NCBI RefSeq assembly: GCF_022227765.1 | Contig: NZ_JAJMLZ010000001.1 | Span: 248,001 to 312,000 of the forward strand | Length of the DNA stretch: 64,000 bases | Reading direction: 5' to 3' | DNA from: Ectothiorhodospira shaposhnikovii | GTDB lineage: Bacteria; Pseudomonadota; Gammaproteobacteria; Ectothiorhodospirales; Ectothiorhodospiraceae | Translations under genes and position numbers: made by a program | Shown here: piece after piece, positions 49,887 to 62,538 of the stretch | Position numbering within the stretch: the stretch's first letter is position 1 | How the letters are laid out: each line of letters starts with the position of its first letter | The notes under the pieces: generated by a model | Told to the model about the DNA's origin: nothing | Seen by the model: the letters and a program-made list of their open reading frames with translations, nothing else | The model's database searches: none

Positions 49887-49963
49887 TGCGGGGTGGAGCA
49901 GTCTGGCAGCTCGTCGGGCTCATAACCCGAAGGTCGCAGGTTCGAATCCTGCCCCCGCTACCA
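49887..49963 (+). tRNA. Initiator tRNA-fMet (CAU)
   Basis: 77-nt tRNA with loop CTCATAA flanked by three consecutive G-C pairs (GGG/CCC), the hallmark of initiator tRNA. T-arm GCAGG-TTCGAAT-CCTGC; CCA is encoded. The acceptor starts with T1 and position 72 is also T, so the first pair is U1-U72 in place of the usual C1-A72 mismatch. Anticodon CAT at the loop centre. Confidence 0.95.
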
Positions 49964-49972
49964 CATTAAGAC

Positions 49973-50009
49973 AAGAAGCCCGTATCGGTCATCCCGATGC
50001 GGGCTTCTT
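49973..50009 (+). terminator. Terminator after tRNA-fMet
   Basis: AAGAAGCCCGTATCGG and CCGATGCGGGCTTCTT arms (16 pairs, one G-T) around a 5-base loop; followed by GCATTTC. It starts 10 bp past the tRNA. Confidence 0.8.
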
Positions 50010-50140
50010 GCATTTCAGCCTCTCACGATTTCATCACCGCGCGATAAGGCTTCCAGCCGGCCCGGATCTCCCGCCGTGTCTGCATGGGCCTGGTGGTCAT
50101 CCGGCATGTTCCGGTGAGTGAATGAATATGCGCTCTTGTG

Positions 50141-59503: not shown

Positions 59504-59694
59504 CAGGCATCCCATGGGGGTTGGTGGATGATCAGTGCGACGGTCAGTGCTCACATGAGTCTTTGGTGCCATGGCGACTTCTTGGTTCCATGGGGTGTGC
59601 CGTGTCCGGCACGCCCCTTTTCCCCGTCCGCCGATTCGGTCATCATGTGCCGCAAGTTCAAGCAAGGGTCATGGCCCGTCTACGGGAGACATGC

Positions 59695-60189
59695 ATGTAC
59701 GCACCTGCGGTTCGTCCCATCTGGTTGCTGATTGCCCTGTTTTCGGCGACGTCCGCGGCGCTGAGCATCGGTCTGACCGAGTGGTTCAGTCTGCATCCCT
59801 GTCACCTGTGCATCTTCCAGCGCCTGCTGTTCATGGTGCTGGCGGTGTTGGCACTGGCCGGCGTGGTGTTCGGGGCATCCCTGGCCGGGGCGATTCCCGG
59901 TCTGCTGGTGCTGGTCGTGGCCAGCATGGGCATGGGGGTGGCGGGCTACCAGAGCTGGCTTGAACGCCAGCCGCCGGATCTCGGATTTTCCTGCGTGGGG
60001 CCCGAGATGGGTCTGATCGAGCGTCTGGTGGAAGGGTTGGGGCAGCAGGTGCCCACCCTGTTCCTGGCCACGGGCCTGTGTGATGAGATGGGTCCGCAGT
60101 GGCTGGGAATTTCCTTTGCCAATGCCGCGTTGGCGGGCTATCTGCTGGTATTCTGTCTGGCGGCCTGGGCGTTGTGGCGCAGCCGATAG
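59695..60189 (+). CDS. dsbB: Disulfide bond formation protein DsbB
   Basis: Inner-membrane quinone-linked enzyme that re-oxidises DsbA, 164 residues from MYAPAVRPIW with GGAG 6 bp upstream. Four helices; the first Cys pair is HPCHLCIFQR (CHLC) and the second pair is in LGFSCVGP and TGLCDEMGP. It is divergent from dsbD across 190 bp, placing oxidising and reducing thiol pathways side by side. Confidence 0.92.
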   Translation: MYAPAVRPIWLLIALFSATSAALSIGLTEWFSLHPCHLCIFQRLLFMVLAVLALAGVVFGASLAGAIPGLLVLVVASMGMGVAGYQSWLERQPPDLGFSCVGPEMGLIERLVEGLGQQVPTLFLATGLCDEMGPQWLGISFANAALAGYLLVFCLAAWALWRSR

Positions 60190-60192
60190 CCC

Positions 60193-60222
60193 TTTACGTG
60201 GTGCGTGTAAGTGCGTTAGGAT
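60193..60222 (+). promoter_or_regulatory. Promoter candidate upstream of a possible RNA
   Basis: TTTACG, 18 bp and TAGGAT. Each hexamer matches four of six positions. The -10 overlaps the palindrome at 60219. Confidence 0.35.
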
Positions 60223-60228
60223 ACGTAT

Positions 60229-60381
60229 CCCTGATCGCGTCGCCTTTAGATCAAGGGTCCGGGCCGTTGGCGGCGCCAAGCACGATGAATCCGGTAGGTT
60301 GATCCCTGTCATGGTTCCGGTGCTTGGTCCGGATTGAGTCTTGAGTGACTGTTTGTTCAAGGCCCCCGAGGGGGTTTTTTT
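60229..60381 (+). ncRNA. Possible structured small RNA or rimP leader
   Basis: About 150 nt between the candidate promoter and the terminator at 60361. Long-range pairs include CCAAGCAC (60276-60283) with GTGCTTGG (60320-60327), GATCAA (60249-60254) with TTGATC (60299-60304), and AATCCGG (60288-60294) with CCGGATT (60329-60335); these compete, so the fold is not settled. No family is recognised. It could also be only the 3' UTR of dsbB. Confidence 0.3.
60361..60381 (+). terminator. Rho-independent terminator before rimP
   Basis: CCCCC-GA-GGGGG with GG preceding and TTTTTTT following, 171 bp past the dsbB stop. Confidence 0.75.
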
Positions 60382-60470
60382 GTTAGCTGGCCAGTAATGT
60401 CGTCGATCGTCCGACAGGGCGGGATGGCAGGGTGGCATCCGGTGCGGTGCCGGGCCGGCAAGTATTCTTG

Positions 60471-60493
60471 AATGGGCCGCAGGCCCATTTTTT
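60471..60493 (+). terminator. Terminator-like hairpin at the rimP leader
   Basis: AATGGGCC-GCA-GGCCCATT followed by TTTT. It lies 16 bp before the rimP start, the position of the terminator hairpin in the rimP leader of enterobacteria; it may attenuate rimP-nusA-infB. Confidence 0.75.
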
Positions 60494-60508: not shown

Positions 60509-60964
60509 GTGAGTCACGACGCCCAGGAACTGAAGCAGTTGATTGCTCCCGTCGTTGCCGGACTCGGTTTCGAGCTCTGGGGGCTGGAATACCGCGTGCA
60601 GCGCAACAGTGCGTTGCTGCGTATCTTCATCGATGGTCCCGACGGCATCAACCTGGATGACTGCGCCGCGGTCAGTGACCAGGTCAGCGGTGTTCTGGAC
60701 GTGGAAGATCCCATCCCCGTGCCCTACCGGCTTGAGGTGTCATCCCCGGGGATGGACAGGCCGCTGTTTACCCCGGAACAGTTCCGCCGCTACCAGGGCG
60801 AGGACGTTCGGGCGCGTCTGAACTGGCCGGTCGAGGGACAGCGCAACTACCGTGGCCGGATCGCCGGTGTCGAGGAGGCCGCGGTGATCCTGGAGGTGGA
60901 GGGCAATCCCGTGCGACTGCCCCTGGAAGCCATCTCCCGGGCCCGCCTGGTGCCCAAATTCTAG
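60509..60964 (+). CDS. rimP: Ribosome maturation factor RimP
   Basis: 30S ribosome assembly protein, 151 residues, GTG start with GGAG 5 bp upstream. Motifs: [41 protein letters not shown] and [20 protein letters not shown]. It starts the rimP-nusA-infB operon, 68 bp before nusA. Confidence 0.96.
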
Positions 60965-61032: not shown

Positions 61033-62538
61033 ATGAACAAAGAAATCTTGCTGGTGGTGGACGCCGTCTCCAACGAGAAAGGCGTCGAGAAGGCCGTGAT
61101 CTTCGAGGCGATCGAGGCTGCGCTGGCTTCCGCCACGCGCAAGAAACACGGCGGCGACATTGACGTGCGCGTCAGCATCCATCGGGACACCGGGGATTAC
61201 GAGAGCTTTCGCCGCTGGCTGGTGGTGGATGACGAAGACCCCGAGTTCGAATCCCCGGATCGGCAGATCCTGTACTCCTACGCCATTCAGAAGAACCCCG
61301 ATGTCCAGGTGGGTGACTACGTCGAGATGCCCATCGAGTCGGTGGAGTTCGGCCGCATTGCCGCCCAGACCGCCAAGCAGGTGATCGTGCAGAAGGTGCG
61401 CGAGGCCGAGCGCGCCAAGGTGGTGGACGAGTTCCAGAGCCGTGTCGGCGAGCTGGTGATGGGCGTGGTCAAGCGCTCCGAGCGCAACGGTGTGTTCCTG
61501 GACCTGGGGGGCAATGCCGAGGCCTTCATCCCCCGGGATGAGATGATCGCCCGTGAGTCCGTGCGCCCCAACGACCGCCTGCGTGGCTATCTCAAGGATG
61601 TCCGCACCGAGGCCCGTGGTCCCCAGTTGTTCGTCAGCCGGACCGCCCCCGAGTTTCTGGTGGAGTTGTTCAAGCTGGAGGTGCCGGAAGTGGGGCAGGG
61701 TCTCATCGAGATCATGGGCGCGGCCCGTGATCCGGGGATGCGCGCCAAGATCGCGGTACGCTCCCTGGATCCCCGGCTTGACCCGGTGGGCGCCTGCGTG
61801 GGCATGCGTGGTTCGCGGGTGCAGTCCGTGTCCAATGAGCTGGCCGGCGAACGTATTGATATCATTCTCTGGGATGACAACCCCGCGCAGTTCGTTATCA
61901 ACGCCATGTCTCCGGCCGAGGTCCTGTCCATCGTGGTGGACGAGGACAACCGGGTCATGGATATCGCCGTGGCGGAAGAAAAGCTTTCCCAGGCCATCGG
62001 CCGCGGCGGGCAGAATGTCCGCCTGGCCTCCCAGCTGACCGGCTGGGAACTCAATGTCATGAGCGAAAAGCAGGCCGTGGAAAAGAGCGAGAGCGAATCC
62101 GCCGAACTGCAGCAGATGTTCATGGCCAGTCTGGACGTGGACGAGGAAGTGGCCGCCATTCTGGTGCAGGAAGGCTTTTCCAGCATCGATGAAGTGGCCT
62201 ACGTGCCCACGGCGGAGATCATGCAGATCGAGGAGTTCGACGAGGACATGGTCGAGGAACTCAGACGCCGGGCCCGTGATGCCCTGCTGACCCGGGCCAT
62301 TGCCACCGAAGAAAAGGTGACCACGGGCGAGCCGGCGCAGGATCTTCTGGAAATGGACGGCATGGATCGTGAACTGGCCTACCGGCTGGCATCCCGTGGT
62401 GTCTGCACCATGGAAGACCTGGCGGAACAGTCGGTGGATGACCTGGTGGAATTGGCACAGATCGATGCCGATCAGGCCGCCGGCCTGATCATGGCTGCCC
62501 GTGCCCCCTGGTTTGCGGACCAGCCAAAAGACGCATAA
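61033..62538 (+). CDS. nusA: Transcription termination/antitermination factor NusA
   Basis: RNA polymerase-binding pausing factor, 501 residues. The N-terminal domain binds polymerase ([20 protein letters not shown]), S1 domain [19 protein letters not shown], two KH domains ([20 protein letters not shown] and [16 protein letters not shown]), and two C-terminal AR repeats ([37 protein letters not shown]). ATG with GGAG upstream. infB follows after 96 bp. Confidence 0.97.

Follow-up and report, generated by a model that had tools for sequence, protein, structure and literature searches.

The intergenic region between dsbB and rimP in the window, the whole 64,000-nucleotide stretch of Ectothiorhodospira shaposhnikovii DNA analysed here, is, with a probability of roughly 80%, the 5' leader of the rimP-nusA(-infB) operon; it carries two terminators in tandem and probably a promoter of its own. 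It is a leader and attenuator region of the kind already described for the rimP operon, present here as a variant, and its function is most likely premature termination, which NusA feedback would modulate. The initial annotation, which offered either an unannotated small RNA or a riboregulator, came close with the second of these. The features discussed, with positions in the window, are the following.

49887–49963, plus strand: tRNA-Met (CAU), read as the initiator tRNA and followed by a terminator of its own; 10545 nt upstream of rimP
59671–60189, plus strand: dsbB, upstream neighbour of the rimP leader (Pfam DsbB, 7e-27)
60193–60222, plus strand: promoter-like pair TTTACG-18-TAGGAT, matching 8/12 consensus positions
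60219–60230, no strand assigned: palindrome GGATACGTATCC, overlapping the −10 element and regarded as chance
60235–60278, plus strand: candidate stem of 60235–60244 with 60269–60278, with compensatory changes across the four species; no more than a lead
60340–60361, plus strand: stem CTTGAGT / TGTTCAAG just 5' of T1, whose foot it overlaps; belongs to the four-species consensus fold
60359–60381, plus strand: terminator T1, C-rich 5' arm, −11.0 kcal/mol
60386–60459, plus strand: foldable T1–T2 spacer, closed by GCTGGCC / GGCCGGC
60470–60493, plus strand: terminator T2, G-rich 5' arm, −12.9 kcal/mol, 15 nt before rimP
60509–60964, plus strand: rimP (Pfam RimP_N, 1.4e-26; RimP C-terminal domain, 5.9e-18)
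61033–62538, plus strand: nusA (Pfam NusA_N, 1.1e-39)

Tandem terminators ahead of rimP

The dsbB stop codon (60189) and the GTG start of rimP (60509) are separated by 319 nt, in which the promoter-like pair, a leader of about 130 nt, T1, an 88-nt spacer, T2 and a final 15 nt follow one another in the 5' to 3' direction. The span flagged by the initial annotation (60193–60493) runs from the −35 element through the end of T2. RimP was found in 43 of the 47 family genomes, and the upstream DNA was examined for 37 of these 43, the window's own included. All 37 leaders have T1; T2 was detected in 36 under strict scanning criteria and in 37 with a looser pattern, the difference being a single leader (L022); both terminators always lay 5' of rimP. 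The strong terminator and the second terminator at the rimP leader that had been noticed from the sequence are present, and kept in essentially all of the family leaders examined. The window thus has, directly before rimP, the tandem intrinsic terminators of inverse arm composition expected of a leader of the RF01770 type. Within 3 kb, the window holds five terminator-like sites, T1 and T2 included, against 2.2 ± 1.6 in shuffled sequences.

We compared the leader with those of three Ectothiorhodospira relatives in which dsbB likewise lies upstream, E. magna being one of them. T1 (93, 90 and 93% identity) and T2 (100, 97 and 100%) are its most highly conserved parts, followed by the spacer (87, 89 and 72%) and the promoter stretch (83, 83 and 67%), and the leader before T1 is the least conserved (73, 73 and 45%).

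This distribution bears on the proposal of the initial annotation that the region might be a separate small RNA. A free-standing, trans-acting small RNA gene (about 60229–60381), with its own promoter and T1 as its terminator, would leave only the surroundings of T2 as the rimP leader, and its parts can indeed be pointed out, namely a promoter-like pair at a position conserved in 4/4 of the leaders with dsbB upstream, 150 nt of foldable sequence and a terminator with a run of T. Its body, however, would be the least conserved part of the region, and its fold has ordinary stability. The intergenic query matched in 12 of 58 genomes, every time immediately 5' of rimP, so that such a gene is not separable from the gene downstream. 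Furthermore, T1 and T2 occur in leaders with or without a pre-T1 segment like that of the window, T1 also being found where tRNA-fMet takes the place of this segment. We consider a separate gene highly improbable; within the rimP leader, termination at T1 would still be expected to yield an RNA of about 150 nt as a by-product.

A displaced tRNA gene and a promoter-like pair

In the family, tRNA-fMet lies directly before T1 in 22 of the 37 leaders, with the tRNA end 101–220 nt ahead of the rimP match, and at 476–650 nt from the match in four; it was not found in 11, for which at most 900 nt of upstream DNA was examined. T1 is present in 15/15 of the leaders in these last two groups. Among ten genomes of the window's genus, the tRNA precedes T1 in six and dsbB does so in four, these being the window and its three Ectothiorhodospira relatives. 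The same dsbB-rimP leader as in E. magna also stands on a contig titled as a Thiorhodovibrio MAG (L073), which is 93% identical to E. magna over 3.1 kb and may be misnamed or wrongly binned.

The window's tRNA-Met (CAU), taken to be the initiator tRNA since it resembles E. coli metY, follows the nuo genes. It is succeeded by a very strong hairpin of −32 kcal/mol (tRNA and hairpin, 49887–50016); in relatives it is T1 that follows the tRNA. The Pfam-tested genes lying between the tRNA and rimP encode CBS, ArsB-like, GGDEF, MobB, MFS, AhpC/TSA-like, DsbD and DsbB proteins. In two leaders of another genus (L034 and L035), what remains of the tRNA-fMet 3' end, CCCGCTACCA, stands directly 5' of T1, and no intact tRNA was found in the stretch examined; the remnant is a trace of how the tRNA parted from rimP.

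One could regard T1 as the left-over terminator of a former tRNA-fMet gene, with a neutral pre-T1 segment and with T2 alone of importance. The direct succession of tRNA-fMet and T1 in the 22 leaders agrees with this idea, as do the two leaders that retain the 3' end of the tRNA immediately ahead of T1, but the retention of T1 in all 15 leaders that have lost the tRNA from this place or in which none was found, together with its 90–93% identity among the four dsbB-type leaders, points to a use within the rimP transcript. We think it quite unlikely that T1 is only such a relic.

With the tRNA gene that often heads the operon about 10 kb away, rimP-nusA looks to have its own promoter. The candidate consists of TTTACG (60193–60198) and TAGGAT (60217–60222) with an 18-nt spacer, as the initial annotation had recognized, and would place the transcription start near 60229, about 7 nt past the −10 element. 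A promoter scan requiring 9/12 matches returned nothing within 3 kb; at a threshold of 8/12, this was the one pair in the intergenic region, and at least one such pair arose in 18% of 500 dinucleotide shuffles. By consensus alone the pair is therefore a weak candidate; conservation strengthens it, for the pair recurs in E. shaposhnikovii, E. lacustris and E. magna, and all four leaders with dsbB upstream have the two hexamers at this spacing (in E. magna as TTTACC and TATGAT). The search for promoter hexamers among the leaders used four −35 variants picked post hoc and left out L022 and L033.

The perfect palindrome GGATACGTATCC reported by the initial annotation is present, but its counterpart is GGATACGCATCC in two relatives and is lost in E. 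magna, and perfect 12-bp palindromes are common in the window (38, versus 26 ± 5 in ten shuffles). Its interpretation as an operator was rejected for want of conservation in the relatives.

Relation to the E. coli leader and RF01770

Naville and Gautheret (2010; PMC2965389) describe terminators in a tandem, inverse arrangement upstream of rimP in several Gammaproteobacteria and propose that NusA regulates them, and PMC6511841 cites a rise of the operon transcripts upon reduced NusA termination. The E. coli leader runs in the order metY, P2 region, 90 nt, t1, 27 nt, t2 and rimP, and the promoters of the metY-rimP operon, P2 among them, are treated in PMC6511841. The leader of the E. coli metY-rimP-nusA-infB operon thus resembles that of the window in having a promoter between the tRNA and t1, then some 90 nt, t1, t2 and rimP. 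It differs in that the tRNA adjoins it, whereas the window's tRNA is 10.5 kb off, and in its inter-terminator distance of 27 nt as opposed to 88 nt.

The Rfam model RF01770 scored 19.3 bits on the window (E 0.96), below the curated cut-off of 47 bits, in a weak alignment that reaches across both terminators and places a long insertion between T1 and T2; the E. coli leader, as a control, scored 102 bits. No other Rfam family matched the plus strand of a 411-bp stretch up to E 10, a minus-strand match to Bp1_162 (15.2 bits against a cut-off of 50) was dismissed as chance-like, and at the gathering threshold Rfam returned only two tRNAs in the whole window. RF01770 also exceeded its cut-off in none of the 47 family genomes, in a search with stricter filters that the E. 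coli control passes. The two genomes nearest to it (39.8 and 36.1 bits) have the two shortest spacers as measured here, of 22 and 17 nt. The window shares with RF01770 the place before rimP, the tandem terminators with inverse C-rich and G-rich arms, the closeness of T2 to the gene and similar GTTA-CTG bases following T1; in contrast, the model wants a short, weakly folded stretch between the terminators, where the window has 88 nt of foldable sequence. The window leader is therefore not filed under RF01770 on account of its score, though its layout works like that of a rimP leader.

Folds around T1 and proposed mode of action

The initial annotation had also proposed three competing long-range stems and suggested covariation analysis as a check. 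The predicted fold of the leader (−59.7 kcal/mol; z −1.73) is only mildly stable, 13 of 200 shuffles being as stable, and a longer stretch gave a similar value (z −1.56; 14/200). The window's long stem (60275–60283 with 60320–60328) keeps 8, 6 and 5 of its 9 pairs in the three relatives, the helices of the window's fold before T1 drop to 5/9 and 3/7 pairs in E. magna, and single-sequence folds differ from species to species. When the entire window fold was laid on the four-species alignment, 88.2% of pair cells were kept (0/500 shuffles as high) and five pairs had changed on both sides (9/500). However, much of this signal comes from T1, T2 and the spacer, whereas the pre-T1 helices decay in the relatives, and the minimum-energy fold of the window was rejected as a conserved structure. 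The initial annotation named lack of conservation of the stems as a refutation; those of T1, T2 and the spacer closure are conserved, and the window's best fold before T1 largely is not.

The pre-T1 segment may be a lineage-specific switch, in which the stem 60235–60244/60269–60278 is in competition with alternative folds and determines termination at T1. This 10-bp stem, contained in the four-species consensus fold before T1, shows compensatory changes and is treated as a lead. It forms part of the best fold in three relatives; in the window it is 13 kcal/mol unfavourable and gives way to a fold of much greater stability. A first scan did not single it out significantly (67/400 shuffles), whereas a second form, altered after the first result was seen so that window-gap columns were dropped and one gapped sequence per pair was tolerated, gave 1/400. 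Both scans used four sequences, with the signal coming mostly from E. magna, and column shuffles that ignore relatedness. The four-species consensus fold from the start through T1 reached z −3.09 (1/300), a value to which T1 itself contributes, but before T1 alone it fell to −1.75 (13/300), and without E. magna to −0.36 (105/300). The presence of a different structured segment at the same place in another genus of the family fits a switch as well; the link between the stem and T1 is itself a proposal only, and we regard the switch as unlikely.

That segment, of about 96 nt, lies before T1 of rimP in nine leaders (L029–L032, L034–L036, L040 and L042) and is preceded by a promoter-like pair in eight of them, the ninth being cut by the contig end. 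It pairs modestly better than shuffles (pairing 15/500; covariation score 35/500), and an Rfam search of a set of these loci returned no match to it. It occupies a single place per genome, except for one genome with hits on two contigs. A model built on it (R1) matched nine of the 47 family genomes, namely its own nine source genomes, one of them twice, and none of 369 genomes of the class, the latter in a search lacking a positive control that says little. The two genera share a similar promoter pair, a folded segment, T1 and T2, but R1 has no match in the window leader, and homology between their structured segments was rejected.

Between the terminators, the four-species consensus fold of the spacer is more stable than all of 300 shuffles (z −4.65), and its closing stem retains 7/7 pairs in 4/4 species, with no excess of compensatory change in either stem scan (227/400 and 327/400 shuffles). 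Over 36 of the 37 leaders, L022 having been left out because the pattern did not recognize its terminators, the spacer fold averaged z −1.42 and was negative in 33. A processing role for the spacer would be a guess: the E. coli leader has an RNase III site, listed in PMC5371410, but this maps before t1 (locus position 1177), and the spacer is therefore not its positional counterpart.

On the leader and attenuator reading, RNA polymerase would start near 60229 at a promoter belonging to the operon itself, whose position corresponds to that of P2 in E. coli, past the tRNA site but before t1. It would then encounter the intrinsic terminators T1 and T2 ahead of rimP. Some polymerases would stop at T1, giving an RNA of about 153 nt, or at T2 (about 265 nt), and the remainder would yield the operon mRNA, in which infB, if present, would run past the end of the window. 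By analogy with the E. coli literature, NusA, itself a product of this operon, most likely promotes termination at T1 and T2 and would in this way limit its own supply. The folds before T1 and between the terminators may contribute to this control.

Observed directly are the layout, the conservation of T1 and T2, the conserved promoter-like pair and the displaced tRNA. A broader and more speculative scenario, which we think unlikely on balance, goes further. After rimP had parted from tRNA-fMet, lineages of the family would have gained a promoter of their own together with a folded RNA domain at the 5' end, and in Ectothiorhodospira mutually exclusive folds of this domain would tune termination at T1. 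If true, RimP and NusA, both core factors, would be under an additional level of control specific to the lineage. For the family as a whole, RF01770 overlooks these leaders at its cut-off, although both terminators stand in essentially all 37, and rimP and tRNA-fMet have parted repeatedly, which allows a natural comparison of what the tRNA-linked promoter contributes to the supply of NusA.
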